A stretch of DNA of 47,612 nt from Actinomycetes bacterium (GTDB lineage Bacteria; Actinomycetota; Acidimicrobiia; Acidimicrobiales; GCA-2861595): the NCBI GenBank assembly GCA_023264975.1, contig JAHFUS010000024.1:1-47612 (forward strand). Direction: 5' to 3'. Below, one piece after another: positions 23,998 through 39,753 of the stretch. The notes under the pieces are model-generated. The model was not told the DNA's origin, did no database searches, and was given only the letters and a program-made list of their open reading frames with translations. The first letter of the stretch is position 1; each line of letters opens with the position of its first letter. Made by a program: the position numbers and the translations under genes.

Positions 23998-24017
23998 ACG
24001 GGGCGCACCGCACGAGC

Positions 24018-25430
24018 GTGACGTCCCGGACCAGCACCCTCCGGCCGTACGGGGTCACCGTCCCCGCCATCGGCGCCGTCGCCCTCTACATGGCCTTCCT
24101 GGCGTGGGCCGTCGAGCACAGTGCGTACGACACGTGGGGGGGCGTGCTGGTGGGCACCGCCCTGCTCCTCGGCAGCCTGCCCGTCGTGCTGCACCTGGCC
24201 AAACGGGAGCCGGACCCCCGGGTCGCCAGGCTCCTACCCTGGGCCCTTGGCCTGAAGCTCGGCGCGTCGCTCATCCGCCTGCTCATCACCTTCGCCGTCT
24301 ACGATGGCGTGGCCGACGCCAACACGTACCACACCGCCGGCCACCTGCTGGCGCCCATGTACCGGCGGGGCGACTTCTCGGCCGACATCGGGCCTCTCGT
24401 CGGCACCGGGTTCATGAAGGTGTTCACCGGGTTGGTGTACGCCGTCATCGGGTCGACCCGCCTGGGCGGCTTCGTGGTGTTCTCCTGGATCGGCTTCTGG
24501 GGCCTCTACCTGTTCTACCGGGCCTTCTGCCTGGCATGCCCCGAGGGCGACCGCTGGCGATACGCCTGCCTCGTGTTCCTGCTCCCTTCGTTGCTCTTCT
24601 GGCCGTCGAGCATCGGCAAGGAGGCGTGGATGACTCTCTCCCTCGGCGTGGCCACCTACGGCGCGGCCAAGATCCTCACCCGCACGCGGGGCGGCTTCGT
24701 CACCCTCGCCCTCGGCGTGGCCGGCACCGTGGCGGTGCGGCCCCACGTGGGCGTCATCCTCATGGTGAGCCTGCTGCCCGCCTACCTCTTCCGCCGGCCG
24801 CCGGCCGGGGGCTCCATCCTCGGGCCCGTGGCCAAGATCGGCGGCATCCTGCTGCTGGGCGTCATCCTGGCCGTCGTCGTCGGCGAGGCGTCGGAGCTGT
24901 TCGGCGTGAAGGACCACTTCGACGCCGAGGCCGTGTCGGCCCTGCGCCAGCGGGCCAACGCCCAGACGTCGGTGGCCGGGTCGTCGTTCGGCAACGGCAC
25001 CACCGACTTCTCGCCATCGGCCTTCCCGGGCGCGCTCATGTCGGTGCTGTTCCGGCCCTTCCCGTGGGAGGCGGGCAACCCGCTGGCGTTCATCGCCTCA
25101 CTCGAGGGCACGTTCCTGCTCGGGATGATGGTGGTCTGTCGCGGGCGGATCGTCGGCGCGCTCCGTTCGGTCCTGCACACGCCGTTCGTGGTGCTCTGCC
25201 TCGTGTACTCCGTGCTGTTCGTCTATGGCTTCTCGAGCTTTGCCAACTTCGGCGTGCTGACGAGGCAGCGGGTGCAGGTGTTCCCGTTCGCGCTCGTTCT
25301 CCTGGCGCTGCCCACCTACCGGCCGGCGCAGGGCGGGTGGCGCGATTTGTTCCTCCGTCCGTACGACGAGGTGCGACCAGCCGACCGGACCCGGGGCGAG
25401 GACGACGAACCGGCCTGGCTCCCGCTGTAG
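24018..25430 (+). CDS. Polytopic membrane protein, candidate polysaccharide polymerase
   Basis: A 470-residue protein with about ten hydrophobic segments. It has no name I can assign firmly. A loop with DGVADANTYH (residues 96-105), the FWPSSIGKEAW segment (194-204) and RPH (241-243) are the kind of polar motifs in membrane loops seen in EpsG/Wzy-like polymerases and GT-C enzymes. Start GTG 24018, 20 nt after the Wzc-like gene; the larger open frame reads into that gene in another phase. Context supports a polymerase: Wzc-type proteins work with Wzy, and no other Wzy candidate is seen. A GT-C sugar transferase is the main alternative. The C-terminus is cytosolic and acidic (EDDEP). Confidence 0.6.
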   Translation: MTSRTSTLRPYGVTVPAIGAVALYMAFLAWAVEHSAYDTWGGVLVGTALLLGSLPVVLHLAKREPDPRVARLLPWALGLKLGASLIRLLITFAVYDGVADANTYHTAGHLLAPMYRRGDFSADIGPLVGTGFMKVFTGLVYAVIGSTRLGGFVVFSWIGFWGLYLFYRAFCLACPEGDRWRYACLVFLLPSLLFWPSSIGKEAWMTLSLGVATYGAAKILTRTRGGFVTLALGVAGTVAVRPHVGVILMVSLLPAYLFRRPPAGGSILGPVAKIGGILLLGVILAVVVGEASELFGVKDHFDAEAVSALRQRANAQTSVAGSSFGNGTTDFSPSAFPGALMSVLFRPFPWEAGNPLAFIASLEGTFLLGMMVVCRGRIVGALRSVLHTPFVVLCLVYSVLFVYGFSSFANFGVLTRQRVQVFPFALVLLALPTYRPAQGGWRDLFLRPYDEVRPADRTRGEDDEPAWLPL

Positions 25431-25463
25431 GGCGACGACGAGCGGGTCAGGATGGTCGCCGAA

Positions 25464-25511
25464 TGTGGCGGAATCAGAGCTTTTGCCACACTCAGTACAA
25501 GTCGGTAAGGT
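25464..25511 (+). promoter_or_regulatory. Promoter with overlapping inverted repeat before the first Tat protein
   Basis: TTGCCA (25483-25488) and TAAGGT (25506-25511) are spaced exactly 17 nt, a good housekeeping-sigma promoter. TGTGGC (25464-25469) and GCCACA (25485-25490) form an inverted repeat that overlaps the -35, as an operator would. The 12-mer GCCACACTCAGT also occurs, with 10 of 12 matches, ahead of the second Tat gene. The leader to GTG 25590 is about 70 nt and includes two ATGCATGC-like palindromes. Confidence 0.5.
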
Positions 25512-25589
25512 GGACCGGGCAGGGTGCATGCACGGCCTGATGCCAGCACGGCCGGATGCATGCGCGGCGACGAACCGGGGAGGCGAGGG

Positions 25590-26111
25590 GTGGACGCACA
25601 AGGCGCGGCAGGACTGTCCAGGCGTGACGTGCTCAAGCGGTCGGCGGTCGTGGGTGGCCTGGTCTGGATCGCTCCCACGATCCTCGCCGGGCCGGCCGGC
25701 GCCAGCGTCGTCACCTGCCCGGCCAACCGCCGGTATGCCATCAAGCACGGCTCGCCGAACACGGGCTGCGAGGTGCCGGGCACGAACCCCGGCGGAACCG
25801 GCAACTGCGCCGCCCAGGCTGGGTTCACCGAATTCCAGAGCGGCTGCTGCCTCGAGCCGACCCTGGTGAGGTTCGTCGCGAGCGCCGACGGAACGACCCA
25901 CACCTACACGTTGGCGGCGGGTGTCGGCTTCTCGCAGGGCTTCGCGAAATGTGGGAACGACTGCCATCGGCACGAGGAACCGCACAACGAGTTCGTCATC
26001 GAGGACCGGGACTCGGTCACCGGCATCACGACGGTCGTCATGACGTGCTCGAGCCTGTCGCACTCCGAGCTCGTCGTGTGCCTCGACGGGTCCAACCTGC
26101 CGGTCTGCTGA
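25590..26111 (+). CDS. Tat-exported cysteine-rich protein 1, unknown function
   Basis: A 173-residue secreted protein of no family I recognise. GTG 25590 is fixed by GGGGAGG 6 nt upstream; the frame is open to 25524 but without such a site. Residues 10-38 form a twin-arginine signal (SRRDVLKRSAVVGGLVW, then AGPAGA) with cleavage near residue 38. The mature part has ten Cys (including CC and a C-terminal Cys), an even number suited to disulfides, and a His/Glu cluster CHRHEEPH. Its signal is almost the same as that of the protein at 27445. Its stop lies inside the HprK-like gene at 26078, which suggests coupled translation and a shared job. Confidence 0.8.
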   Translation: MDAQGAAGLSRRDVLKRSAVVGGLVWIAPTILAGPAGASVVTCPANRRYAIKHGSPNTGCEVPGTNPGGTGNCAAQAGFTEFQSGCCLEPTLVRFVASADGTTHTYTLAAGVGFSQGFAKCGNDCHRHEEPHNEFVIEDRDSVTGITTVVMTCSSLSHSELVVCLDGSNLPVC

Positions 26112-26965
26112 TAGTCGGACGTCCTGCCGCTCGTCGCATCGGGCCGTACGCGGTACTAGGGCAGCACTTCGCCGTCACGGTCGACGACACGGCGATCGCC
26201 GGCTACCTGGAACAGGCCTTGGCGTCACTGGCCACGTCGTCGCCGCCCACGGTTCGATGGTCGGTCGTCGACCGGGCCGGAGCCGACGCAGACCACCGAT
26301 TCGCAGTCTTCCGGGACGGCAGCCTGCTCTTCGGCTGTGCCGACAGGAACCACGTGGTGCCGCTGCTGCTGTGGTGGGTCAACCGGACCGTCTGCTTCGA
26401 AACCGGCCACCGTGTGATGGTGCACGCCGCAGTGGCCGCCGTCGACGGCAGAGCCGTCGTGCTCCCCGCTCCGCAGGAGTCGGGCAAGACCACGCTGGTA
26501 GCGGCGCTGGTGCAAGACGGTCTCGGCTACCTCACCGACGAGGCCGCCGCCTTCGACCCGAAAACCGGGATGGTGGACGCCTATCCCAAGTGGCTTTCCC
26601 TGAAGCCCGGGTCCTGGGCCCTGTTCCCGCACCTGCGGCCCGTCCTGCCGCCGGAGCTGGCCGGCTTCGCCGAGGACCAGTGGCACGTCGTGCCGGATGC
26701 GGTCCGGCCCGGCGCGGTGGTGCCCTCGGCGGAACCGGCATTCGTCATCGCACCCCGGTACCGACCGGGCCAGTCGACGTCGATGGAGCCCATGGGCCGC
26801 GCCGAGTCGCTCTCGATCCTGGCCGAGGAGGCGTTCAACCTCGGGCGCTTCGGGAGGGCGGGCTTCCAGGCGTTGGCCGGCGTCGTCGGTCGCAGCGAGT
26901 GCTGGCGGCTCACGACAGGTGATCTGGGCGAAGCGGTGGCCGCCGTGCGGGCTGTCACCGGCTGA
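26078..26965 (+). CDS. HPr-kinase-like protein A
   Basis: A roughly 295-residue relative of the C-terminal HPr kinase/phosphorylase domain. MVHAAVAAVDGRAVVLPA leads into the P-loop PQESGKTT near 131-138, then GYLTDEAAAFD, the usual acidic segment. LKPGSWALFPHL and MGRAESLSILAEEAFNLGRFG match the equivalent parts of protein B at 28292. The first P-loop Gly is Ala, but Gly-Lys-Thr-Thr is intact. No ATG exists near the gene start. GTG 26078 is the nearest in-frame start and overlaps the Tat gene by 34 nt. The N-terminal domain of true HprK (serine-phosphorylation sensor) is missing. Kinase action on a peptide or protein is inferred. Confidence 0.72.
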   Translation: MPRRVQPAGLLIVGRPAARRIGPYAVLGQHFAVTVDDTAIAGYLEQALASLATSSPPTVRWSVVDRAGADADHRFAVFRDGSLLFGCADRNHVVPLLLWWVNRTVCFETGHRVMVHAAVAAVDGRAVVLPAPQESGKTTLVAALVQDGLGYLTDEAAAFDPKTGMVDAYPKWLSLKPGSWALFPHLRPVLPPELAGFAEDQWHVVPDAVRPGAVVPSAEPAFVIAPRYRPGQSTSMEPMGRAESLSILAEEAFNLGRFGRAGFQALAGVVGRSECWRLTTGDLGEAVAAVRAVTG

Positions 26966-26994
26966 GGGACCCGGGTAGCCGCTCCCCGATCGTC

Positions 26995-27009
26995 TACGTT
27001 CGCGTTGTG
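26995..27009 (+). promoter_or_regulatory. Candidate leaderless promoter of the Thr-rich protein gene
   Basis: TACGTT at 26995-27000 lies 6 nt before GTG 27007 and there is no Shine-Dalgarno. This is the same spacing as the sites before 46256 and 3559. Transcription starting at the GTG would give a leaderless mRNA. Confidence 0.4.
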
Positions 27010-27414
27010 CGACAAGGCCGGTGGTTCATCTGGCTGCTGTTCGTGCTCGCCGCCGTGCTCGCCGCCGACAGCCTGCACCTCGCAGGCGGAACCGATCCCC
27101 CCGCTCCTAGGACCGGCGTGCTGGGCGAGGTGCTCACCAGGGACACGGTGGCGCCGGCGCTCACGACGGTCCCTGCCATGGTCGTCACCACGACCATCGC
27201 CGCCGCGACCACCACTGCGGCACCCCTCGTAACCGTGCCGGTGACGGTCGCCAAGCCGCCTACCACCGTGACGACGAGGGTCGCTACGACGACGACCAAA
27301 ACCGCCCAGGAGGGCACCACCACGTCGACAACCACGACCGCCCCGGAGGGCACCACCACGTCGACGTGGCCGCCCTACAACCCGCCGGAGACGTTCATGC
27401 CGCCGCAGACCTAG
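27007..27414 (+). CDS. Small secreted or membrane-anchored Thr-rich protein
   Basis: A 135-residue protein. Residues 5-20 (WFIWLLFVLAAVLAAD) form a signal peptide or signal anchor after a short basic start. The rest is low-complexity and rich in Thr, Val and Pro, with runs such as TTTIAAATTTAAP and two EGTTTST units, ending in PPYNPPETFMPPQT. Such Thr-rich stalks are often O-glycosylated or span the cell wall. It lies between HprK-like A and the second Tat gene, convergent with the latter (30-nt gap). Function unknown; involvement in the adjoining system is only positional. Confidence 0.65.
   Translation: MRQGRWFIWLLFVLAAVLAADSLHLAGGTDPPAPRTGVLGEVLTRDTVAPALTTVPAMVVTTTIAAATTTAAPLVTVPVTVAKPPTTVTTRVATTTTKTAQEGTTTSTTTTAPEGTTTSTWPPYNPPETFMPPQT
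27309..27365 (+). repeat. 21-bp direct repeat in the Thr-rich gene
   Basis: The 21-bp block that begins GGAGGGCACC and ends ACGTCGAC occurs at 27309-27329 and 27345-27365, a period of 36 bp (12 codons). It encodes the EGTTTST unit twice. It is a recent internal duplication that can expand or contract in frame. Confidence 0.85.
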
Positions 27415-27444
27415 CGTCCGCGGGACCGACAGCGTCTCAGGCGG

Positions 27445-28173
27445 TCAGGCGCAGGTGGTGACCGTGCAGTTGATCTTCGAGGCGTTCTTCACGCACAACT
27501 CCATCTCGATGAAGTTCAGCGTGGTGCCGATACCGTCGGTCGTCATGTAGACGCCGCTGATGGGCGTGGTGCAGGCACACGGCTTGTTGTTGCTGCTGCC
27601 ACAGCGGGTGCCCGTGGGACGGGATCCGCCGGGCTGGTTGCCGGTGCAGCGGGTGCTGGCCGGGCCAGTGCCGCCCGTGTACACCTGGAACAGGGCGAGG
27701 TCGTCGGTGGTTGCCGGATCGGTGAAGGTGGAAGCAGTGGTGTAGATCTCGGCGTTGGTGCTGGAGACCCACCTGAACACCTTGCCGAACCCCTCGTTGC
27801 AGCGGGCGACGTAGCAGTCGTTCGTCGACTTGATGGCGAACTTGTACCCCGTGACGCCGTCGCCGAAGGCGATCGAGGCGCTGTTGGCGCTGCTGTCGAC
27901 ATCGTCGCACTTGCCGAGCAGGCCCTGGGAGATGAGGCAGTCGATCGAGTAGCGGTGCACGACACCAAAGATGTTGGGCTGCAGGCATTGGTTCTGGCAC
28001 GTCTGGGAGTCGCCCGGAGCGAACTTGGCGTAGATCACCTCGCCGCCGTCGCAGGTGCAGCAGCCGGTCGACTGGCCCCACGCGGTGCCGGTCGAGAGCA
28101 TCGGGGACGCCCAAACCACACCACCGACGACTGCAGAGCGCTTCAACAACTCCCGACGGGAAAGTCCGTCCAT
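27445..28173 (-). CDS. Tat-exported cysteine-rich protein 2, unknown function
   Basis: A 242-residue secreted protein. ATG 28173 is preceded by GGAGG with a 7-nt spacer. Residues 5-33 are a Tat signal (SRRELLKRSAVVGGVVW, then STGTAWG). It nearly duplicates the signal at 25590, while the mature parts differ. The mature part holds 16 Cys (GCCTC, CQNQC, CYVARC, CAC and others, the last next to the C-terminus) and many Thr/Ser/Gly. It looks like a disulfide-stabilised extracellular protein. The gene follows the PqqD/nucleotidyltransferase/HprK gene train on the same strand after a 118-nt gap. I infer that it is one substrate or product of that system. Confidence 0.8.
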   Translation of the reverse strand: MDGLSRRELLKRSAVVGGVVWASPMLSTGTAWGQSTGCCTCDGGEVIYAKFAPGDSQTCQNQCLQPNIFGVVHRYSIDCLISQGLLGKCDDVDSSANSASIAFGDGVTGYKFAIKSTNDCYVARCNEGFGKVFRWVSSTNAEIYTTASTFTDPATTDDLALFQVYTGGTGPASTRCTGNQPGGSRPTGTRCGSSNNKPCACTTPISGVYMTTDGIGTTLNFIEMELCVKNASKINCTVTTCA

Positions 28174-28204
28174 CTGTCCGCCTCCAGCCGTCCCGACCAC
28201 CACT

Positions 28205-28221
28205 CATTGTGGCGCTCACAA
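28205..28221 (-). promoter_or_regulatory. Palindrome upstream of Tat protein 2
   Basis: TTGTG-GCGCT-CACAA at 28207-28221 is an inverted repeat about 34 nt before the start. On the gene strand the sequence continues GCCACAATGAGT, which matches 10 of 12 positions of GCCACACTCAGT before Tat protein 1. A minus-strand TATTCT lies just upstream and could be a -10. A common regulator is possible but not shown. Confidence 0.35.
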
Positions 28222-28291
28222 CGAGAATACACCACTACGAGGGCTGGAATACCAGAATCGTGACGCTAAGTGGTCGGAATGGGACAATGCG

Positions 28292-29224
28292 TCAGCATTG
28301 GGATGTCCCGGTCGCCAGCGGCCGCAGGAGGTGCGGAGCCGTACTCACGCCGTCGAGGAGCAGGCGGTGGCAGGAGGTCCGGCTGACGGCCCGCGCCAGG
28401 CCGTCGAACCCCGGGCCACCGAGCCGGCGCAGGTTGAACGTGAGCGACACCAGGCGCTCGAGCGCCTCCGCCCGGCCCATGGGGACGAGCGCCGTCGTCA
28501 CACCCGCCACGACCTCGGGGAACACGAACGCCACCGGCCGCGCCGGCGCCGGCGGACCGGACCCCCCGCCCAGGGTGCCCGGCAAAAGCAGCCGCAGGTC
28601 CGTGACGAGCGCAGGGACGCCATCGGGCCAGCGGCGGTCGCTGCCCGGGAACAGGTCCCACGAGCCCTCCTCCAAGGCGAGCGGCCGGGGATAGGGGCGC
28701 ACGACGTCGCGACGGAGGTCCAGATCGGCGACCTCGTCGGACAGGTAGTCCCACCCCGCCAGCGCGAGAGCGGTCACGAGGGTCGTCTTCCCCGCCCCCG
28801 ACCGCCCCGGCAGGATGACGGCCCGCCCGTCGAGGCTGGCGACGGCGGCGTGGACGTGGACGTCCGGCGAGGGCGCGTTCAGTGCGATGGCGTTCAGCAG
28901 CCACACGAGTGATCGGGCCAACCCGGCCACCGACCCGGCCCAGAGGGAACGTTCGCCGTCCTGGTACGCGGCCCACCTACCGTCCACCTCCACCAGGTCG
29001 AGGGCGATGCCGGGCTCCGTAGCGGTGGGGAAGGCGGCCACGAACGCCTCGAGGAACCGACCGAGGGAGGCGTCCTGGCAGCGGATCCTCACCCGGGCGT
29101 CGAGCAGGCGGACCGGCCCGACGGCGGTGGCGTAGCGCACCGCGTCGAGCACCCGCCGCTCGATCCGCACCGCAGGCCCGCCGTCGGGCGCCGGGGGCAG
29201 GTCGGCGGGCGCCCGGACGGTCAT
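28292..29224 (-). CDS. HPr-kinase-like protein B with intact P-loop
   Basis: A 310-residue protein. VHVHAAVASLDGRAVILP leads to a canonical Walker A GRSGAGKT at 140-147, then DYLSDEVADLD. ALEEGSWDLFPG and MGRAEALERLVSLTFNLRRLG correspond to protein A. The N-terminal 120 residues align with A in pattern (VGPVRLLDARVRI...FLEAFVAAF). ATG 29224 lies in an ATGA overlap with the stop of protein C, so B and C are co-translated. In phosphorylated lasso-peptide loci, related kinases modify the precursor; here no lasso precursor is seen. I infer ATP-dependent phosphorylation of a partner, perhaps a Tat protein before export. Confidence 0.75.
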   Translation of the reverse strand: MTVRAPADLPPAPDGGPAVRIERRVLDAVRYATAVGPVRLLDARVRIRCQDASLGRFLEAFVAAFPTATEPGIALDLVEVDGRWAAYQDGERSLWAGSVAGLARSLVWLLNAIALNAPSPDVHVHAAVASLDGRAVILPGRSGAGKTTLVTALALAGWDYLSDEVADLDLRRDVVRPYPRPLALEEGSWDLFPGSDRRWPDGVPALVTDLRLLLPGTLGGGSGPPAPARPVAFVFPEVVAGVTTALVPMGRAEALERLVSLTFNLRRLGGPGFDGLARAVSRTSCHRLLLDGVSTAPHLLRPLATGTSQC

Positions 29225-29997
29225 CGAGGAGGAGAGCGGTCCAGCACGGCGTCGACCATCGCCAGCGTGTAGCCGGGGAACATCGACGTCGCCCGCACGG
29301 TGGTGAAGAAGCGGGCCACAGTGGTCACGAGGTCCTGGTCGGGGGCCGTGATGCCGTCGACGATGTCGAGGATGGCGGCCCGGGTGGCGGCGGCGCGCGA
29401 GACGGGCCCCCACTCGCCGCCGTTGTCGATGAAGACCCAGCGCTCGACCGGGTAGCGCCCGACGGCGACGGTGGGCTCGGCTCGGCGCCGGAGGACGCCG
29501 GCGGTTGCGTCGGCCAGGGCGCCCGCATCGGCCTCCACGAAGTCGGGCACCACCAGCTGGGCCGACGCGAAGTCGACGAGGGCGCGGGGCGTGTCCACCG
29601 CCACGTAGCCGGCGGCCCGGAGTTGGCGGTCGACGATGCGCAGGTCGTCCTTGAACCGGGACGGCAGCAGCACGGCGCGCCCGTCCCGCACATAGGGGAG
29701 CGACGTCACCCACACCAGGCCTGGCAGCGGCGGCAGGTGGGCGCCGAGGTGATCGCTGAGCGAGCGGAGAATGCGGTCGGGGTCGAACGACCTGGCCGCC
29801 ACGCAGCCCCCCCAGAACAGCAGGTGGGCGTCGTCGCGCCTGGGACTGAACTGGACGGAGAAGTTGCGCGGCGCCTGCGGGTCGTCCACCACCCGGTCGC
29901 GGAAGGCACGCGCCAGCGCCAGCGCGGCGGCTTCGGTGTTGGTCCTGATCCCCGCCCGGACGGTTCCGAGCTCCACGGCGCACGAGTCCACCCACAC
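29221..29997 (-). CDS. HPr-kinase-like protein C with degenerate P-loop
   Basis: A 258-residue protein. VRDGRAVLLP aligns with the DGRAVILP of protein B, but the following P-loop is replaced by SRFKDDLRIV (residues 113-122): no Gly-Lys-Thr remains. The flanking pattern (ELGTVRAGIRTNTEAAALALARAF at the N-terminus, AAGYVAVDTPRALVDF after the loop) still fits the fold. It is probably a catalytically dead paralogue acting as scaffold or regulator of B, whose start it overlaps by 4 nt. GTG 29997 is used; GTG 29991 is equally possible. The gene is intact and its reading frame is well kept, so it is unlikely to be a pseudogene. Confidence 0.6.
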   Translation of the reverse strand: MWVDSCAVELGTVRAGIRTNTEAAALALARAFRDRVVDDPQAPRNFSVQFSPRRDDAHLLFWGGCVAARSFDPDRILRSLSDHLGAHLPPLPGLVWVTSLPYVRDGRAVLLPSRFKDDLRIVDRQLRAAGYVAVDTPRALVDFASAQLVVPDFVEADAGALADATAGVLRRRAEPTVAVGRYPVERWVFIDNGGEWGPVSRAAATRAAILDIVDGITAPDQDLVTTVARFFTTVRATSMFPGYTLAMVDAVLDRSPPR

Positions 29998-30018
29998 GAG
30001 GTGTTCGACGGTCTGGCC

Positions 30019-30492
30019 TCAGGGGGCGGGCGGGTTGGCGAGGTAGTCGGGACGCCAGAGGCCCTCGGCCTCGTCCGAGCCGGCGGTCGCGTCCTGCGAC
30101 CGTGCTGCGCCCACCAGCTGGTGGGCGGGCGGCTCCGCGCCGTCGAGCAGGGCGGCGTCTTCGAGGGAGCGGACCAGGGCGTCCAGGTCGGCCCGCACGG
30201 TGGTGGCCGGGATCTCGAAGGCGTCGGCCAGGTCCCCGACCAGCTCCTCGACGGTGACCTCGCCGTCGAGGACGCTCCAGATCACCGAGGCCACGGGATC
30301 CAGCAGGTGCAGCCGGTCGGTGCGAGGATCGAGCAGCAGCAGCTCGCCGTCCACGTCCGTCGTCCGCAGGCCGCCGGCCGGCCGGGGGACGAAGGCGCCG
30401 TCCACCGGCTCCCGCTCCACCGGCCCGTGCACGTGCCCGCCGGGGCCGTGGTCGTGGTCGTCGTGGTGATCCTGGGCCACGGAATCTCCCAT
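30019..30492 (-). CDS. PqqD-like peptide chaperone with His-rich N-terminus
   Basis: A 157-residue protein from ATG 30492. Residues 28-118 form a PqqD-like winged-helix domain: strand GELLLLDPRTDRLHLLDP, then VASVIWSVLDG, then the helical VEELVGDLADAFEIPATTVRADLDALVRSL. PqqD domains bind leader peptides and present them to modifying enzymes. The first 25 residues are unusual: six His and several Asp in residues 8-22 (DHHDDHDHGPGGHVH), a likely metal-binding tail. A 38-residue C-terminal tail ends WRPDYLANPPAP. The gene is 13 nt after the second PqqD gene and 21 nt before HprK-like C. Confidence 0.72.
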   Translation of the reverse strand: MGDSVAQDHHDDHDHGPGGHVHGPVEREPVDGAFVPRPAGGLRTTDVDGELLLLDPRTDRLHLLDPVASVIWSVLDGEVTVEELVGDLADAFEIPATTVRADLDALVRSLEDAALLDGAEPPAHQLVGAARSQDATAGSDEAEGLWRPDYLANPPAP

Positions 30493-30505
30493 CGGGGTGG
30501 ACAGG

Positions 30506-30808
30506 CTACGTCGAGCCATCTGTGTGTTCGGACACCAGCCCCAGTTCCAGGAGCCGGACGACCAGAGCGTCCACATCGGCACGGACCGCCGCCAGGGACA
30601 CCCCGAACACGTCCGCCAGGTCGGCAGCCAGCTCACCGGTCGTGGTCACGCCGTCGAACGAGCCCCAGATGAGCGAGCCGATCCGGTCCAGGCGGACCAG
30701 CCGGCCGGTCGCCGGGTCCCACACCACCCGCTCGCCGTCGAGCTCGGCGTCCCCGAGCCCTGGCTTCACCTTCCAGACCGGTCCTGAGCTGTCGGGCGGT
30801 TCACGCAC
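30506..30808 (-). CDS. PqqD-like peptide chaperone
   Basis: A 100-residue PqqD-like protein. GERVVWDPATGRLVRLDRIGS, LIWGSFDG and ELAADLADVFGVSLAAVRADVDALVVRLLELGL follow the same layout as the other two copies. GTG 30808 is fixed by GGGAG with a 6-nt spacer and overlaps the end of the nucleotidyltransferase gene by 8 nt, so the frame extension to 30976 is rejected. Close to the typical 90-residue length of PqqD. Role: leader recognition for a peptide or protein modified by its neighbours, inferred from family and context. Confidence 0.75.
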   Translation of the reverse strand: MREPPDSSGPVWKVKPGLGDAELDGERVVWDPATGRLVRLDRIGSLIWGSFDGVTTTGELAADLADVFGVSLAAVRADVDALVVRLLELGLVSEHTDGST

Positions 30809-31949
30809 GGCGATCTCCCGGTCGGATGGAGCGGTGGCGGCGGGCCACCTCGCGCAGGCCCGTGCCCCATTCGGCCGGCCGCCCCGCCTGCCTCCGGGCC
30901 GCCACGTAGGCGCCGTCGGGTGCGAGCAGGGCGCGAAGGTACCGCGCCCGGTCGATGCCCCGCACCCCGAGCGCACCGGAGAGCAGCTCGAGGGTGTTCG
31001 AACCGCCCTGGGCCCGGTAGGCCCGCAGAGAGAGGCGCTCCCACCGGCTCGCCACGGCGGCGTCCGCGAACGCGGCGGCGGCCTCCCCGACCCGGGCCCC
31101 CAACGAGGACCTGCACGCGGCGACGGCTGCGGCGACGACGGCCGCTCCCCTGCCGGGCGGCAGGAGGGCGCTCAGCCGCTCGGGCCGGAGCCGGTGCGAC
31201 GTCGAGATGCGCACCACATCGCGCAGCGCCACCAGGCGCGGGTGGTCGTCGCCCAGCATGGCGTTGAGGCACGCATGCGCGAAGCGGCCCTCGGCGTCGA
31301 GTGCCTCCAGCGTGGTGCCGCCCAGCTCGAACGTCGCCGTCGACGCCCACAACGTCGCCAGGTCGATACGGAGCCCGAACGACCCGAGCGCGAGCGTGCG
31401 GTGGAGATCGACCTCGGGACGGCGGGGATGAGCGAGCGGGACCTCCTTGCCGAAGCGACGGTCGAATCCACGACTGCGCTCCGGAAGGTCGCGCACATAG
31501 CCGATGGAGGCCAGCGCGGCGAGGGCGCCGGACATGGCCTGGCTGCGCACGAGCAGGTCGAGGTCGGCGTAGTGGCGAAGGGCCGGGTCCGGCTCGTCGA
31601 GGCGCGCCACCGCCGGCCCCTTCAGGACGACGAACGCCACGCCGGCCCGTCCGAGGCAGTCGGCGACCACGAGCAGCGCACGCTCCAGGAGCAGCGTCCC
31701 CCGGATGAACTGGGCCGCCGCATCCTCGGCGTCGTCGGCCTGCGCCCGGGTGGCCGGCACGACCCCGTCGGCCACCGCCCGGTCGAGCAGCCCGCTCATG
31801 CGCTCTTTCGACACGGCGGCCGAGAGCGATCGCCACTGACGGTCCTCCAGGGCCCGGAGCGGGCTCCTGTCCCCGGTGCCCGGGAGGCCGTGGGCGGCGA
31901 CGGCGAGCAGGGCAGTGCGCACGTCGGCCTCCAGCCCGGGCGCAGGCAT
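30801..31949 (-). CDS. Nucleotidyltransferase-fold protein (NTP_transf_5 type)
   Basis: A 382-residue protein. VAFVVLKGPAVARL (Lys110) and RHYADLDLLV (Asp129 and Asp131) form the NTP_transf_5 core: a Lys plus a DXD-type pair in the pol-beta-like fold. PEVDLHRTL supplies a later Asp. The C-terminal half is helical and ends in a basic tail. The family is uncharacterised biochemically but is repeatedly found with PqqD- and HprK-like genes in RiPP and exopolysaccharide loci. It could nucleotidylate a peptide or protein. ATG 31949 is chosen (the frame extension to 32369 is Arg/Gly-rich noise). The gene lies between two PqqD genes: 14 nt after one, overlapping the other. Confidence 0.75.
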   Translation of the reverse strand: MPAPGLEADVRTALLAVAAHGLPGTGDRSPLRALEDRQWRSLSAAVSKERMSGLLDRAVADGVVPATRAQADDAEDAAAQFIRGTLLLERALLVVADCLGRAGVAFVVLKGPAVARLDEPDPALRHYADLDLLVRSQAMSGALAALASIGYVRDLPERSRGFDRRFGKEVPLAHPRRPEVDLHRTLALGSFGLRIDLATLWASTATFELGGTTLEALDAEGRFAHACLNAMLGDDHPRLVALRDVVRISTSHRLRPERLSALLPPGRGAAVVAAAVAACRSSLGARVGEAAAAFADAAVASRWERLSLRAYRAQGGSNTLELLSGALGVRGIDRARYLRALLAPDGAYVAARRQAGRPAEWGTGLREVARRHRSIRPGDRRA

Positions 31950-31963
31950 CGGAGGGGCCCGCC

Positions 31964-32239
31964 TCACACGGGGACCACCAGGCCGGCCGCCACCATGGCG
32001 GCCACGAACTCGCCCACGTCGGCCCGTATGGCGTCGGCCGACTGGTCGAAGACGGCGGCCAGGTCCTCCACCAGCTCGTCGAGCGACACGTCGTCGTCGA
32101 ACGCCTCCCACACCAGGGCAGGTATGTCGCGGAGCTCCACGACGGCGGCCCCCTCGCCTGGGCTCACGAGGACCCGCCCGCTCGTGCGATGCCACAGTGC
32201 ATCCTTCGAGCGTCGGTATCTCCCTGTCGTCACCGCCAC
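31964..32239 (-). CDS. PqqD-like peptide chaperone
   Basis: A 91-residue PqqD-size protein: GRVLVSPGEGAAVVELRDIPA, LVWEAFDDD and DELVEDLAAVFDQSADAIRADVGEFVAAMVAAGL. It is the first certain gene of the minus-strand train that ends with the Tat protein 2 gene. GTG 32239 has GGGA close upstream; a 40-codon frame (32230-32352) overlaps its start by 10 nt. Three separate PqqD copies in one operon is unusual and suggests that more than one client or modification step is served. Confidence 0.72.
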   Translation of the reverse strand: MAVTTGRYRRSKDALWHRTSGRVLVSPGEGAAVVELRDIPALVWEAFDDDVSLDELVEDLAAVFDQSADAIRADVGEFVAAMVAAGLVVPV

Positions 32240-32352
32240 GTCCCTGCAGCGCGTCGACCCGGCACGTGCGGCCCCGGGCTCCTGCCGGCCGGGTGCACCG
32301 GCATGGCCACGCTACCTGCGCCGCCGGACCGCTCCGTCGTCGATCCCACCAT
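32230..32352 (-). CDS. Possible small ORF overlapping the first PqqD gene
   Basis: ATG 32352 opens a 40-codon frame (VGSTTERSGGAGSV... ending AAGTWR) whose stop overlaps the PqqD start by 10 nt, a layout seen when a precursor peptide precedes its chaperone. There is no clear Shine-Dalgarno, and the same DNA could simply be the promoter region: TAGCGT on the minus strand is a candidate -10. The frame is in phase with a long shadow frame of the desaturase, so chance is likely. Confidence 0.2.
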   Translation of the reverse strand: MVGSTTERSGGAGSVAMPVHPAGRSPGPHVPGRRAAGTWR

Positions 32353-32381
32353 GCCGGGCCGGGCCACACTGCCGGAGCAGC

Positions 32382-33305
32382 TCAGTCCTCGCCCTGGGGC
32401 TCCTCGCCCTGCTTCTCTTCGCGCGCCCGACGGTCCTTCAGCCGGCCTGCCGCGATGCCCACCCTGGCCACGTAGGTGAGGACCCGCTCGCGGGCCTCGT
32501 CGGCCTCGCCGGACAGGCCTTCCAGCTTCTCCAGCTTCCAGTGGCGCAGGACGAGCGGGACGAGGATGTGGTCGTGGTGCTGGACGAAGTCGTAGATGCC
32601 GACCTTGGCGATGCGGCGGGCGTGGGTCGGGAAGTCGGCGATGCCGGTGCCCGGCATGTCGAAGCCCCGCACCTGGCGGTCGATGGCCAGCACCACCATG
32701 GACGGGTCGACCTCGAGGGCGGCGTCGGTGATGCCCCGGTAGAACAGGTAGTGCAGGTTCTCGTCGGCCGCCACCCGGGCCATGACCTCGTAGCCGGCCC
32801 GGTCGGTGAGCAGCTTGCCGGTGTTGAGATGGGCGATGCGGGTGGCCAGCTCCTGCATGGTGACGTAGGTCATGGTGTCGGCCGGGTTCTGGGGCTCGGG
32901 GGTGATGCCGCCGGACACCTGGCGCATGCGGGCCCGCTCGAGCTCGGTGGCGTCGAGCGCGCGCGTGACGGTGAGGTAGTCGCGGATCACGATGGCGTGG
33001 CGACCCTCCTCGGCCGTCCACCGCCGGGCCCACTCACCCCAGGCGCCGTCCCCGAAGACGTTCTGGATCGTGTGGTAGTAGTACGGCAGGTTGTCCTCGG
33101 TGAGCAGGTTGAGGAACAGCGCGCTGCGCACGCCCTCGGGCACCGGGTACTCCACCGGGTCCCACACCTCGTCGGGCTCGAAGTCCCTGCCCTTGCTCCA
33201 GGGCACCATCTCGTGCGGGAACCACTCCTTGGCCCGGGCCAGATGCTTGTCCAGCAGGCGGGCGACGGTCGGTTCGAGCTCCTCCAGGAGCGCGCGATCC
33301 TCCAT
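32382..33305 (-). CDS. Acyl-ACP desaturase (diiron, soluble)
   Basis: A 307-residue ferritin-like diiron protein. Iron ligands: Glu70 (LLTEDNLP), Glu100 and His103 (EEGRH), Glu152 (TMQELATR) and Glu182/His185 (DENLH). It introduces a cis double bond into acyl-ACP with O2 and ferredoxin, like mycobacterial DesA enzymes. Length and motif spacing are normal. ATG 33305 is 10 nt from a perfect 20-bp palindrome, so a repressor would block it directly. The basic and acidic C-terminal tail (KDRRAREEKQGEEPQGED) is likely disordered. No redox-partner gene is next to it. Confidence 0.9.
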   Translation of the reverse strand: MEDRALLEELEPTVARLLDKHLARAKEWFPHEMVPWSKGRDFEPDEVWDPVEYPVPEGVRSALFLNLLTEDNLPYYYHTIQNVFGDGAWGEWARRWTAEEGRHAIVIRDYLTVTRALDATELERARMRQVSGGITPEPQNPADTMTYVTMQELATRIAHLNTGKLLTDRAGYEVMARVAADENLHYLFYRGITDAALEVDPSMVVLAIDRQVRGFDMPGTGIADFPTHARRIAKVGIYDFVQHHDHILVPLVLRHWKLEKLEGLSGEADEARERVLTYVARVGIAAGRLKDRRAREEKQGEEPQGED

Positions 33306-33315
33306 GGACCTCCAG

Positions 33316-33335
33316 CCTACCTACCGGTAGGTAGG
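33316..33335. promoter_or_regulatory. Perfect 20-bp palindrome, probable TetR-type operator
   Basis: CCTACCTACCGGTAGGTAGG is fully self-complementary. It lies 10 nt before the desaturase ATG and 104 nt before the divergent peroxiredoxin gene. TetR-family repressors of lipid metabolism often bind palindromes of this length and style. The regulator itself is not in the window. Confidence 0.65.
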
Positions 33336-33378
33336 GACGCCAAACCGGGGCTATCGGTAGTCACGGCGGAGGAGTAAA

Positions 33379-33397
33379 GTTGACTCGCTAGGTCAAC
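33379..33397 (+). promoter_or_regulatory. Inverted repeat upstream of the peroxiredoxin gene
   Basis: GTTGAC and GTCAAC are separated by 7 nt (total 19 bp), 42 nt before ATG 33439. TTGACT within the left arm could double as a -35, although no good -10 is found 17 nt downstream. Likely a regulator binding site in the divergent promoter region shared with the desaturase. Confidence 0.4.
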
Positions 33398-33438
33398 AAT
33401 CGGGTTGGACGCCCAGCCCAAGACACCGGAGGTATTCC

Positions 33439-34074
33439 ATGGCCCTGCAACTCGGCGACGCCGCCCCCGACTTCACGGCGGAGACCACCGACGGCAAGAT
33501 CAACCTGTACGAGTACCTGGCCGACGGCTGGGGTGTCCTGTTCTCCCACCCCCGGGATTTCACGCCGGTCTGCACCACCGAGCTCGGCGCGGTGGCCAAG
33601 CTGAAGGACGAGTGGGACAAGCGCAACACCAAGGTGATCGGCCTCAGCGTCGACCCCATCGAGGACCACGAGCGGTGGATGGACGACATCGAGGAGACCC
33701 AGGGCGCCCGGGTCAACTTCCCCATGATCGGCGACGCCGACCGCACGGTGGCTGACCTCTACGGGATGATCCACCCCAACGCCAACGATACCCAGACCGT
33801 CCGCTCGGTGTTCGTGATCGGCCCCGACAAGAACGTGAAGCTCACCCTCACCTACCCGGCCAGCACGGGCCGCAACTTCGACGAGATCCTGCGGGTGATC
33901 GACTCCCTCCAGCTCACGGCCAAGTACTCGGTGTCGACCCCGGTCAACTGGAAGGACGGCGACGACGTCATCATCGCCCCCGCCATCTCCGACGAGGACG
34001 CCAAGGTGAAGTTCCCCAAGGGCTTCGAGACCAAGAAGCCCTACCTGAGGATCACCCCGCAACCGAACAAGTAG
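33439..34074 (+). CDS. 1-Cys peroxiredoxin (Prx6 subfamily)
   Basis: A 211-residue AhpC/TSA-type protein. The peroxidatic Cys45 is in DFTPVCTTELG, with the Prx6-type HPRDFTPVCTTE context. The extended C-terminal domain (NFDEILRVIDSLQLTAKYSVSTPVNW onward) is that of the Prx6 group, and no resolving Cys is seen elsewhere: Cys45 is the only one. It reduces hydrogen peroxide and lipid hydroperoxides in the cytosol. ATG 33439 has GGAGG 7 nt upstream. Being divergent from an O2-dependent desaturase makes a lipid-peroxide role plausible, but that is inference. Confidence 0.93.
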   Translation: MALQLGDAAPDFTAETTDGKINLYEYLADGWGVLFSHPRDFTPVCTTELGAVAKLKDEWDKRNTKVIGLSVDPIEDHERWMDDIEETQGARVNFPMIGDADRTVADLYGMIHPNANDTQTVRSVFVIGPDKNVKLTLTYPASTGRNFDEILRVIDSLQLTAKYSVSTPVNWKDGDDVIIAPAISDEDAKVKFPKGFETKKPYLRITPQPNK

Positions 34075-34082
34075 TTCAGTTC

Positions 34083-34143
34083 GGAACCGGAGGTTCCCCA
34101 CTGAGTTGACGGTGCTGCGGACGGCCGGCGGAGCCGGCCGTCC
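34083..34143 (+). terminator. Two hairpins after the peroxiredoxin gene
   Basis: GGAACC-GGA-GGTTCC (34083-34097) is followed by a stronger 11-bp stem, GGACGGCCGGC (34119-34129) with GCCGGCCGTCC (34133-34143) and a 3-nt loop. After it comes TCGCTCGTTCGTC, only mildly T-rich. A GC-rich intrinsic-like terminator, as is common in actinobacteria. Confidence 0.6.
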
Positions 34144-34223
34144 TCGCTCGTTCGTCTCCGGCCGCCGACTCCTTGGCGCGCCGCCAGGCCGGCGGTCGGG
34201 CGGGTTGGGGCACACTGGCCGGC

Positions 34224-35420
34224 ATGGGTGCTGCTGTGGTCGTGGATGCGGTGCGGACGGCGGGGGGGAAGCGGAACGGGTCGTTGCGGGGGTGGCACGC
34301 GGCCGATCTGGCCGCCGAAGTGCTGGCGGCGCTCGTCCGGCGCAACGACCTCGACCCGGCGATCGTGGACGACGTGATCCTCGGGTGCGTGATGCAGGTG
34401 GGCGAGCAGGGCTTGAACGTGGCCCGCAACGCCGTGCTGGCGGCCGGCTTCCCCGAGTCGGTGCCCGGCGTGACCGTAGACCGGCAGTGCGGCAGCTCCC
34501 AGCAGGCCGTGCACTTCGCCGCCCAGGGCGTGATGGCGGGCGCCTACGACGTGGTGATCGCCGGCGGCGTGGAGTGCATGAGCCGGGTGCCCATGGGGGC
34601 GTCGATGCAGGTGGGGGGCATGCCGTTCGGTCCGGCCGTGTTCGCCCGCTACCACGAAGCCGGCGGCCTTGTACCGCAGGGGATCTCGGCCGAGATCATC
34701 GCCGACCGATGGGGCCTGTCCCGCGAGGACCTCGATGCCTATGGCGCCCGCTCCCAGCAGCGTGCGGCGACGGCACGGGGGGCCGGGCACTTCACCGATG
34801 AGATCGTCCCCGTGGCGGTACGGGACGACAACGGGCACGACACCGGCATGGTCTTCGACGCCGACGAGGGCATCCGCCCCGATACCACCGTCGAGGTGCT
34901 GGCCGGCCTGAAGCCGTCGTTCAAGCCCGACGGCGGGATGGTGACGGCGGGCAACTCGTCGCAGATCACCGACGGGGCGGCCGCCGTCCTCATCATGAGC
35001 GAGGAGCGGTGCGCCTCCCTCGGCCTCGTCCCCCGCGCCCGCTTCTGCTCGTTCGCCCTGGCCGGCGTCGACCCCGTCACCATGCTCACCGCCCCCATCC
35101 CGGCGACCGCCAAGGTCCTCGAGCGGGCCAAGCTGGGACTCCACGACATCGACGCCTTCGAGATCAACGAGGCCTTCGCCTCGGTGGTGCTGGCGTGGGC
35201 GCGCGACGTCGGTCCGGACATGGACAGGGTCAACCCCAACGGCGGCGCCATCGCCCTCGGCCACCCCCTCGGCGCCTCCGGCGCCAAGCTCCTGGCCACC
35301 CTCCTCAACCAGCTCGAGCGCACCGGTGGCCGCTACGGCCTCCAGGTCATGTGCGAGGGAGGCGGCCTGGCCAACGCCCTCGTCCTCGAGCGCCTGAACC
35401 GTGCGCTCCCGAGTAAATAG
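34224..35420 (+). CDS. Acetyl-CoA acetyltransferase (thiolase)
   Basis: A 398-residue thiolase. Cys89 in DRQCGSSQQAV is the acyl-accepting nucleophile, and NGGAIALGHPLGASGAK near 340-350 holds the catalytic His. VMCEGGGLANA near 375 holds the second Cys; this differs from the usual C-x-G-G-G-Q pattern by an inserted Glu and by Leu where Gln is usual. NEAFASV matches the NEAF motif. It cleaves or forms 3-ketoacyl-CoA. ATG 34224 gives the normal N-terminus GAAVVVDAVRTAGG; the frame upstream to 34173 is not supported. It stands alone, bounded by hairpins on both sides. Confidence 0.92.
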   Translation: MGAAVVVDAVRTAGGKRNGSLRGWHAADLAAEVLAALVRRNDLDPAIVDDVILGCVMQVGEQGLNVARNAVLAAGFPESVPGVTVDRQCGSSQQAVHFAAQGVMAGAYDVVIAGGVECMSRVPMGASMQVGGMPFGPAVFARYHEAGGLVPQGISAEIIADRWGLSREDLDAYGARSQQRAATARGAGHFTDEIVPVAVRDDNGHDTGMVFDADEGIRPDTTVEVLAGLKPSFKPDGGMVTAGNSSQITDGAAAVLIMSEERCASLGLVPRARFCSFALAGVDPVTMLTAPIPATAKVLERAKLGLHDIDAFEINEAFASVVLAWARDVGPDMDRVNPNGGAIALGHPLGASGAKLLATLLNQLERTGGRYGLQVMCEGGGLANALVLERLNRALPSK

Positions 35421-35447
35421 GGTGTCGTTTTGACACCCTATTTACTC
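35411..35447. terminator. Bidirectional terminator between thiolase and ABC exporter
   Basis: A perfect 16-bp stem (GAGTAAATAGGGTGTC with its complement) around a GTTTT loop. It is strikingly A/T-rich for this genome. The left arm overlaps the last codons and stop of the thiolase gene, and the right arm ends 8 nt before the stop of the opposing ABC gene. It can terminate transcription from both sides. Confidence 0.8.
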
Positions 35448-35455
35448 GAAGCCGG

Positions 35456-37336
35456 CTATTTGTACGCCGCCGCCTGGATGCCGTAGAGCTCGGCGTACTG
35501 GCCGCCGCGGGCCATGAGGTCGGCGTGGGTGCCGACCTCGGCCACACGTGACCCGTCGAGCACGACGATGAGGTCGGCCATGCGGACGGTGGAGAAGCGG
35601 TGCGACACGAGGATGGTGATGCGGCCCGTGCGGGCGGCGGCGGCATCCTCCTCGGCCACCGACTCGGCCAGCGCCGGGTCGGCGGCGCCCCGCCGGGCGG
35701 CTGCCGCATAGCGCTCGAAAAGGGCGTGTTCGGTCTCGGCGTCGAGGGCGGCGGTGGGCTCGTCGAGCACCAGCACGAGGGGGTCGTCGCGCATGAAGCC
35801 GCGGGCGAGCGCCAGCTTCTGCCACTGGCCGAACGACACCTCCACCCCGTCCGGCCACGTGGGGCCGAGTTGCGTCTCCAGGCCGGCGGGGAGGTGGGCG
35901 ACCACGTCGTCGGCGCCGGCCCGGCCGACGGCAGCGGCCACGGCCCCGACGTCGTCCACATGGGGCTCGTCGCCCAGGCCCACCGTCTGGCGGGCGGGGA
36001 GCTCGAAGCGGAAGAAGTCCTGGAAGGCGCCGGCCAGGCGTGCCCGCCAGTCGCCGGCCGACATGCGCCCGAGTGGCTCGCCGTCGACCAGGATGCGCCC
36101 CGATGTGGGCTCGTACAGCTTGCACAACAGTTTCACCAGGGTGGACTTGCCGGCCCCGTTCTCTCCCACAACGGCAACCACGGCGCCGGCCGGCAGGTCC
36201 ACCGAGACGTCGTCGAGCACCAAGGTGTCGGTGCCGGGATAGGCGAAGGACACGTGGTCGAAGGCGATGCCCGTCGCCAGCCGCGACGGGACCGGGACGT
36301 CGGCGGCCGCCTCCAGCGACGCGGCGTAGTCCTCCAGCCAGGCCATGCGCCGGGAGCCGTCGAGCCAGATGCCGCGGAGGAACCCGATCTCGCCCACGGT
36401 GGCGCCGATGTACGACGACAGCCGGGAGCCGGCGGCGAGGATCAGCAGGACGTCGCCCGGAGGCGAGTCGAGGCCCGACGCCACGAACACCACCGCCCCC
36501 ACGTAGGCGAGGCCGAAGGTGGCCCACGCCAGGGCGTGCCACACGGCGCTGCCCCACCGGGCGGACGATACCGGCCCGTACCAGCGCTCCCACGCCTCCC
36601 GCCGCCCGTCGTGCAGTCGATCGCCGATGCCGGTGACCCGCACCTCCTTTCCGGGCGGGGCGGTGGTGGCGGTGAGGAAGAGATGCTTGGCCAGCCGCTC
36701 GGACTGGGCGCCCTTCTCCTGGGCGGCCCGCTCCACCGCCGGCCGCCACGACGACGTGGCCACCGTGGGCAGCGCGAACACGGCCAGCAGGGCCAGGGCC
36801 GGGTGGATGGAAACGAGCAGGGCGACGGTGACCCCGAGGCGCAGGATCCACCCGCACGTGGAGAACACCGACATGTACATGTGGTCGAGCACGAACACGT
36901 GGTCGCGCAGCAGGGAGATGCGGTCGAGGTAGGCGGGCCGCTCCTGGTGGGCGATGGTGACCACCGATGCCTGGAGCCGGGCCACATGCGACTCCAACGC
37001 GATGGTGACCTTGTCGCGGAAGTGGCGTTGGACCCGGGTGCTCACCGTGCGCAGGAACCACGTGGCCGTAGCCGACAACCCGAGGCCGATGGCGGCGACA
37101 CGCAGCAGGCCCTGGTCGTGCTCGAGCACGCCCTCGCCCAGGAACTTGAGCCACAGCGCCATGAGCGCGTCCGGCAGCGCCGCCAGCAGGGCCAGCAGGA
37201 AAGCGGAGGCCAGCAGCCCGGGCTCGTGCTGGTAGCCGAGCTTCATGGCCCGCCACATCGACGACAGGGCGGGTGGCAGCTCGCCGGCCGGGTCAGGCCC
37301 GGCTGACGGGAAGCCGTGGCTAGCCGAGGGCTTCAT
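35456..37336 (-). CDS. ABC transporter, fused permease-ATPase (half 1 of a heterodimer)
   Basis: A 626-residue exporter half. About six membrane helices lie in residues 35-330 and the nucleotide-binding domain from about 360. Walker A is VGENGAGKST and Walker B is LVLVLDEPTAALD. The signature loop reads VSFGQWQKLALARG instead of LSGGQ. Between the D-loop and the switch His (VSHRFSTV) lies an extra Ala/Glu-rich stretch of about 25 residues. ATG 37336 overlaps the partner gene's stop by 17 nt, so the pair is co-translated. It probably forms a heterodimer with asymmetric ATP sites. Substrate unknown; lipid, peptide or drug export are all possible. Confidence 0.87.
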   Translation of the reverse strand: MKPSASHGFPSAGPDPAGELPPALSSMWRAMKLGYQHEPGLLASAFLLALLAALPDALMALWLKFLGEGVLEHDQGLLRVAAIGLGLSATATWFLRTVSTRVQRHFRDKVTIALESHVARLQASVVTIAHQERPAYLDRISLLRDHVFVLDHMYMSVFSTCGWILRLGVTVALLVSIHPALALLAVFALPTVATSSWRPAVERAAQEKGAQSERLAKHLFLTATTAPPGKEVRVTGIGDRLHDGRREAWERWYGPVSSARWGSAVWHALAWATFGLAYVGAVVFVASGLDSPPGDVLLILAAGSRLSSYIGATVGEIGFLRGIWLDGSRRMAWLEDYAASLEAAADVPVPSRLATGIAFDHVSFAYPGTDTLVLDDVSVDLPAGAVVAVVGENGAGKSTLVKLLCKLYEPTSGRILVDGEPLGRMSAGDWRARLAGAFQDFFRFELPARQTVGLGDEPHVDDVGAVAAAVGRAGADDVVAHLPAGLETQLGPTWPDGVEVSFGQWQKLALARGFMRDDPLVLVLDEPTAALDAETEHALFERYAAAARRGAADPALAESVAEEDAAAARTGRITILVSHRFSTVRMADLIVVLDGSRVAEVGTHADLMARGGQYAELYGIQAAAYK

Positions 37337-39128: not shown

Positions 39129-39228
39129 CGTCGCAACGTTGGCACATCCGCCCGGGATCAGGTCCGGCGCCGGTCCCACACGTGTCAAGCTAGGTGTGGC
39201 GAACCCAGCGACGGATGGGAGAAGGCTG

Positions 39229-39579: not shown

Positions 39580-39753
39580 GCGCCGCAGGCACGCAAGCAG
39601 GGCCACGCCGCGGACCAACCCCACCGGACGGACCCAGCGCCGCCCGAACGGACTCATACTGAGGGTTCGACGACCGCCACGCGATTCCTCCCGACAGAGG
39701 CGCAGCGGAAACAACGCCCCCGGGACGACCGCTGCTTGCAGCATCCTGAGGGG

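Follow-up and report, generated by a model that had tools for sequence, protein, structure and literature searches.

A predicted selenoprotein joining a PqqD domain to a P-loop-less HprK-like domain across an in-frame UGA in an actinobacterial genome

Analysis of a 47,612-nucleotide contig from an Actinomycetes bacterium (assembly GCA_023264975.1, contig JAHFUS010000024.1; this whole stretch is hereafter called the window) pointed to a minus-strand gene that would encode one selenoprotein, a reading to which we assign a probability of roughly 0.85. The predicted product comprises a PqqD (leader-binding) domain, a short linker, a selenocysteine (Sec) encoded by an in-frame UGA, and an HprK-like domain without a P-loop. 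The features by which bacterial selenoproteins are recognized were found here, namely a UGA with coding sequence on both sides, homologues with Cys, a hairpin (at the level of the family), and SelA, SelB, SelD and tRNA-Sec in the genome. The combination of the in-frame UGA, the Cys homologues, the covarying hairpin and the Sec machinery leads us to conclude that this UGA is very probably read as selenocysteine. The coordinates of the features are listed in Table 1.

The 3' part of this gene had been described in the initial annotation as a protein of its own (protein C), an HprK-like paralogue with an erased P-loop, coupled through an ATGA to the active-looking paralogue protein B. Translation confirmed the open frame on the minus strand as well as the coupling, the stop codon of C overlapping the ATG of protein B in an ATGA. 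The proposed 5' boundary did not hold. The frame of C starts directly 3' of a TGA, and none of its first seven codons is a start codon, the first possible start being a GTG at codon 8. Relatives conserve these seven codons at the protein level, and the PqqD ORF that lies across the TGA shares the frame of C. Standard annotation splits such a gene at the UGA, so that a selenoprotein is mistaken for a PqqD protein followed by an orphan pseudokinase.

Table 1. Features of the predicted selenoprotein gene and of its neighbourhood in the window.
Feature	Coordinates	Strand	Basis and remarks
Predicted single gene, PqqD – linker – Sec (UGA) – P-loop-less HprK-like domain	29221–30519	−	Translation with TGA = U; 432 aa plus stop; inferred (chosen) start ATG 30519, alternative ATG 30492
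PqqD (leader-binding) domain, residues 59–125	30145–30345	−	PF05402, 50.5 bits (cut-off 23.4)
Conserved linker motif YLANPPAP ([FY]LxxPPxx), immediately 5' of the UGA	30022–30045	−	Family alignment
In-frame UGA, predicted Sec codon, residue 167	30019–30021	−	TGA in 25/25; Cys in other members
Candidate bSECIS hairpin, 6-pair consensus helix	29988–30004	−	De novo; the window's own helix is weak
P-loop-less HprK-like domain (protein C plus 7 upstream codons)	29224–30018	−	Translation, profiles, model
Protein C, frame of the initial annotation	29221–29997	−	Open reading frame
Segment SRFKDDLRI at the place of the P-loop in C	29635–29661	−	Translation and profile alignment
Protein B, HprK-like kinase, intact P-loop (GRSGAGKT)	28292–29224	−	TIGR04352, 98.5 bits (under cut-off 200)
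Second HprK-like kinase, P-loop APQESGKT	26108–26965	+	TIGR04352, 128.5 bits (under cut-off 200); inferred start
Second PqqD-domain ORF	30506–30976	−	PF05402, 47.9 bits
Third PqqD-domain ORF	31964–32239	−	PF05402, 44.5 bits
NTP_transf_5 nucleotidyltransferase	30801–32150	−	PF14907, 75.5 bits; inferred start
Tat-signal Cys-rich protein, candidate substrate, 16 Cys from the RR motif on	27445–28203	−	TIGR01409, 14.4 bits (under cut-off 16.7)
Tat-signal Cys-rich protein, candidate substrate, 10 Cys from the RR motif on	25524–26111	+	TIGR01409, 19.1 bits (over 16.7)

The absence of the P-loop from C was borne out: C has DGRAVLLPSRFKDDLRI where protein B has DGRAVILPGRSGAGKTT, and the absence stands, since a pattern search over all of protein C found no P-loop elsewhere. 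The loss is older than the word "erased" implies. Among 60 domain hits, 40 lack the P-loop, and all of these fall to the same side of a single branch with support 100 (the trees of the C family are quick trees). A recent erasure in this copy was rejected because the loss is common to the whole branch; judged by sequence, C belongs to a P-loop-less branch of long standing and is no recently damaged copy. The substituted segment itself is not conserved among homologues, and a new nucleotide loop in place of the P-loop was rejected on this ground.

The kinship of C with HprK was assessed by sequence, profile and structure comparisons. Pairwise similarity between C and B is weak (E 0.042), no hit to C was obtained in Pfam and NCBIfam at E up to 1, and the model for HprK-related kinase A (TIGR04352) gave no hit at E ≤ 1, its curated cut-off of 200 bits not being reached. 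A sequence search of the PDB with the family profile returned 0 hits. A profile built from nine C homologues recovered neighbours with a genuine P-loop (E about 3e-10), and in these matches the P-loop aligned with the substituted segment of C ("lpsalkddl"). When the P-loop-less set was compared with the P-loop set, profile against profile, the probability was 99.0 and E 2.4e-18 over 246 columns, values that are flattered by the use of the C profile to pick the kinase set; protein B and the second kinase of the window were found independently of that profile, via TIGR04352. The structure model of C has a mean pLDDT of 58 and is good only in parts of residues 118–280. HprK/PEPCK entries occupied the top rows of a Foldseek search of the PDB, but at E 0.14, and Z was 8.9 with PEPCK and 7.4 with HprK for a model built on 5 alignment rows, 3 of which are kinases that may pull it towards the kinase fold. 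The model of protein B matched PEPCK/HprK at E about 1e-6, with Z 17.7 for PEPCK. The earlier description of C as an HprK-like pseudokinase is thus sustained by the conserved P-loop-less branch and by profile homology to HprK-like kinases, while the resemblance of the model core to the HprK/PEPCK fold is weak. Overall, C is almost certainly a P-loop-less homologue of HprK.

Members of the C family were collected from related genomes. With C as the query, 198 genomes of the order gave ten matches, of which one was spurious (L010, genome G020; its frame is dehydrogenase-like by eye, and it was rejected as a Sec member). Searches with the profile of the nine real members covered 397 genomes from the order, with matches in 22, and 396 from the phylum, with matches in 12; a 21-member profile matched 30 of 395 genomes from the class. 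P-loop kinases, as well as some weak matches due to chance, are counted among these. A scan of genome contigs detected one locus, and a tblastn search of plasmids gave no match. Another candidate Sec member (L065, genome G427) was rejected as well: its TGA is some 20 residues ahead of the domain and cannot be compared with the others. The comparable Sec-form members number 25, from 22 genomes (22 initial rows minus L065, plus L101, L103, L110 and L111); they are related, so their 25 TGA codons are not independent.

All 25 members carry TGA at the same alignment position, as against about 70% TGA among nearby stop codons (48 of 69, with a crude filter). In most members the context of the junction is "[FY]LxxPPxx-TGA-xDKLxRLxW", and the protein is conserved on both sides; the members of family f107 (L059, L061–L064) have a motif without PP. 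A PqqD domain is convincingly in frame with the C domain in 18 of the 25, a count from which L111 (domain E 7) was left out. A short in-frame stretch of 26–97 codons precedes the TGA in L003, L005, L058, L063 and L064, and L008 has 132 open codons there with no PqqD match. After the TGA, the first in-frame ATG, GTG or TTG occurs at codon 31 in L004, 52 in L008 and 54 in L040, and conservation of the protein ahead of any possible start in these three members counts in favour of coding across the TGA. A search of NCBIfam 20.0 with the full predicted protein returned PqqD models only. A His-rich stretch (HHDDHDHGPGGHVHG) precedes the PqqD domain of the window protein (30424–30468, minus strand), and L059 and L061 have His-rich stretches between PqqD and Sec; both suggest metal binding.

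These results change what can be said of the role first suggested for C, that of a pseudokinase scaffold or leader-binding partner. The leader-binding part gains weight, since PqqD lies within the same predicted protein, in frame in most Sec forms, and some other members, L060 and L006 among them, have PqqD and C fused without any stop. The scaffold part missed the upstream extension through the UGA, and the likely Sec points to redox chemistry rather than to a passive scaffold alone.

Other members of the family have Cys at or near the Sec position. A Cys is aligned with it gap-free in L039, L087 and L096. In nine members of families f62 and f140 a CxxC lies over the position, the first Cys meeting it gap-free and the second only with a three-residue gap; forms with CxxC are L060, L087, L090, L092, L093 and L095–L100. 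In L006, L007 and L037, with which L089 groups in the tree, a Cys precedes the Sec position by a few residues, and PqqD and the C domain are separated by a thioredoxin-like stretch containing CGYC. These fusions provide a probable link of the C family to redox chemistry. Neither Sec nor Cys is present at the site in L042, L043, L094 and L065. The Sec forms have no CxxU motif, most of them lack a partner Cys, and their Sec is not part of a known redox fold. On the quick tree the Sec and Cys forms are intermingled, with at least 5 changes, and they constitute a natural set for the study of Sec/Cys exchange.

A redox role of the Sec is, on this evidence, somewhat favoured. The protein could instead be a selenoprotein whose Sec is structural or binds metal, with the HprK-like domain as a mere docking scaffold for kinase B and no redox chemistry on a substrate, a reading that shares the identity proposed here and differs in function only. 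It draws on the His-rich stretches of the window protein, L059 and L061, and on the lack, in most Sec forms, of the partner Cys of a CxxU pair, but it fits poorly with the CxxC of the Cys forms and with the CGYC of the thioredoxin-like fusions; we consider it unlikely, though by no means negligible.

Downstream of the TGA, at about 20 nt, a hairpin was found de novo. Over 23 distinct sequences, 93.4% of the cells of the helix are paired, and five of the six pairs show double (compensatory) changes; 16 double-change cells were observed against 2.8 after shuffling (0 of 500 shuffles). Sliding the partners of the helix lowered pairing to 40–52%. The published bSECIS model demands a loop of 3–9 nt with a G in its first two positions, a distance of 16–37 nt from the UGA and at most −7.5 kcal/mol. 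This full model was satisfied by 17 of 21 Sec forms, compared with 12.6% of 3062 random TGA triplets, and a tight position test was passed by 18 of the 21, by 5.0% of the random triplets and by 1 of 12 Cys forms. In a control in which the hairpin was sought after either Cys of the CxxC, 1/12 and 0/12 passed. Four members were found after the helix had been defined; all four agree with the full model and three with the tight test. The sole Cys form that passed the tight test is L039, whose genome (G137) retains tRNA-Sec; this Cys form with a SECIS-like hairpin still in place possibly reflects a recent Sec-to-Cys change.

The hairpin is best seen at the level of the family. The energy threshold of −7.5 kcal/mol is failed by 4 of the 21 Sec forms, and the window's own copy falls short of it, its helix reaching −4.0 kcal/mol (strict helix) and that of a genus mate −7.3. 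Measured against synonymous-codon shuffles, the hairpin region stands out only slightly (mean z −1.1; p was below 0.05 for 3 of 21, of which two are near-identical). An Rfam scan of positions 24000–40000 gave no SECIS at the site, and a covariance model (R1) searched against 33 sources at E < 0.01 found no further such site, the Sec members matching by construction.

Under the two-gene model of the initial annotation, PqqD would end at the TGA and C would be a separate pseudokinase translated by re-initiation just downstream. Such an arrangement would suit the prevalence of TGA among the nearby stops, the ATG directly after the TGA in L009 and in L061/L062, the GTG at codon 8 in the window and the tight ORF overlaps in this cluster. 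It is nonetheless improbable in view of the conserved protein ahead of the first possible start (with 30–53 start-less codons in L004, L008 and L040), the frame that C shares with PqqD in most Sec forms, the Cys at the site in other members, and the covarying hairpin that is largely lost in Cys forms.

The Sec machinery was searched for in the genomes. The source genome has a tRNA-Sec with anticodon TCA, a selA (401.9 bits) adjoining selB (301.8 bits), and a selD (326.5 bits). A tRNA-Sec was detected in 17 of the 22 Sec-form genomes and in 14 of the 14 with a completeness of 90% or more; the five genomes where none was detected are 61–89% complete. Among same-order genomes without a C match, it was present in 32 of 51 (23 of 41 at 90% completeness), a set that keeps G044 (weak partial match, E 3.8e-6) and G020 (the spurious L010), both without tRNA-Sec. 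The association of tRNA-Sec with Sec forms had p 0.0014 in near-complete genomes and was not significant over all genomes (17/22 vs 32/51, p 0.17). Of the genomes with Cys forms, the near-complete G412 and G352 lack tRNA-Sec, and several others retain it. In the selenoprotein reading, ribosomes would decode the UGA as Sec with the aid of the hairpin, and SelA, SelB, SelD and tRNA-Sec of the source genome would serve this decoding, yielding PqqD–[FY]LxxPPxx–Sec–pseudoHprK. Readthrough without Sec, whether by near-cognate Trp or Cys insertion or programmed, would give a mixture of short PqqD and long PqqD–C and would also account for the coding sequence to either side of the UGA (some short PqqD product being expected with Sec too), but with a hairpin that fits the bSECIS model, a complete Sec machinery and Cys replacing the codon in relatives, it is highly improbable.

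The gene environment could give clues to the function. A C-family gene, an HprK-like kinase and a PqqD domain occurred together in 13 of 13 regions examined, with an NTP_transf_5 nucleotidyltransferase nearby in 8 (some regions being short) and a Tat-signal protein containing 2 to 18 Cys in 9. Many of the Tat leaders share a SRRxLLKRSAVVGGxVWxAP-like sequence. At 25509–28203 of the window, and in regions L011–L018 and L112, Cys-rich proteins have a near-constant Tat leader followed by variable mature parts, with HprK-like kinases adjoining. Genes for polysaccharide synthesis (glycosyltransferase, Polysacc_synt_2 and DegT) are also present in the window. A second cassette, nucleotidyltransferase-like/PqqD/HprK-like, was observed in the same genome (G000:C54, L116, 4031–7075, minus strand); its nucleotidyltransferase was called by eye, and the stretch seen has no Sec pseudokinase. 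Separately, positions 32941–33008 of the window (plus strand) matched RF01781 (ASdes TB sRNA) in Rfam over the gathering score, antisense to a desaturase-like ORF at 32382–33305.

In the function that we propose, the PqqD domain would bind the Tat-signal leader of a secreted, Cys-rich product of a nearby gene, and the dead HprK-like domain would provide a docking site for its HprK-like kinase partner(s) or for the substrate. The Sec (in related forms a CxxC, at times accompanied by a fused thioredoxin-like domain) would carry out thiol/selenol redox chemistry on the substrate, after which the active kinase and the nucleotidyltransferase would attach phosphate and sugar in the way described for phosphoglycosylated lasso peptides. 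By analogy with the kinase, nucleotidyltransferase and PqqD of lasso clusters, the cassette may modify Tat-signal proteins; that the Sec protein acts on them, to which it is tied by adjacency, is tentative and has slightly less than an even chance. More speculative, and on balance doubtful, is a selenium-dependent RiPP-like modification system of Actinobacteria, in which PqqD would read the shared Tat leader of folded Cys-rich proteins, PqqD–Sec–pseudoHprK would set their thiol state and dock the kinase, and the HprK-like kinase and nucleotidyltransferase would attach phosphate and sugar before export. Such a system, if real, would bring a selenoprotein into the leader-guided modification of whole secreted proteins for the first time.

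The predicted protein has in common with known bacterial selenoproteins the in-frame UGA, the Cys homologues, a bSECIS-like hairpin 16–37 nt downstream with a G in the first two loop positions, and the Sec machinery of the host. Known bacterial selenoproteins are mostly thioredoxin-like, whereas the C-family protein combines PqqD and HprK-like domains; Table 1 of an inventory from 2026, which covers 119 families and subfamilies of prokaryotic selenoproteins, lists neither a family with a PqqD or HPr-kinase-like domain nor a PPxxU motif (PMC13188914). Searches of full-text literature, with most subscription journals outside their coverage, found no PqqD- or HprK-related selenoprotein. PqqD–Sec–pseudoHprK would be an unlisted selenoprotein family made of a peptide-binding domain and a dead kinase. 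If this is right, the prokaryotic selenoproteome gains a family whose architecture departs from the usual thioredoxin-like folds, selenium becomes connected with the recognition of peptide leaders as well as with kinase-like folds, and the role of the uncharacterised HprK–PqqD–nucleotidyltransferase cassette becomes testable.

Selenoprotein O is an AMPylating pseudokinase, protein-kinase-like, with Sec near its C-terminus. A Selenoprotein O-like protein (PF02696) appears among the listed prokaryotic selenoproteins (PMC13188914) and is likewise a Sec-containing pseudokinase, but it belongs to a different family, unrelated to HprK, and the Sec described here lies instead at the junction of two domains. 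In the "HPr-rel-A system", HprK-related kinase A (TIGR04352) and PqqD (TIGR04353) also stand side by side, and C is homologous to these kinases; the present system differs in that C has neither a hit to TIGR04352 nor a Walker A motif, and in that B and the second kinase score under the cut-off. To our knowledge, no Sec protein is known in the HPr-rel-A system.

In lasso clusters, a homologue of HPr kinase phosphorylates the precursor, a nucleotidyltransferase adds hexoses to the phosphate and a PqqD-like protein binds the leader, according to the account in PMC8498205. The paeninodin and pseudomycoidin cassettes described there unite a PqqD-like leader binder, an HPr-kinase homologue and a nucleotidyltransferase in one cluster, as is the case here. 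No lasso cyclase or B2 protease was found among the 19 ORF stretches of the window scanned with Pfam. The cassette described here differs from the lasso cassettes in its candidate substrates, which are Tat-signal Cys-rich proteins of 164 and 238 aa counted from the RR, and in its additional, predicted Sec-containing pseudokinase.
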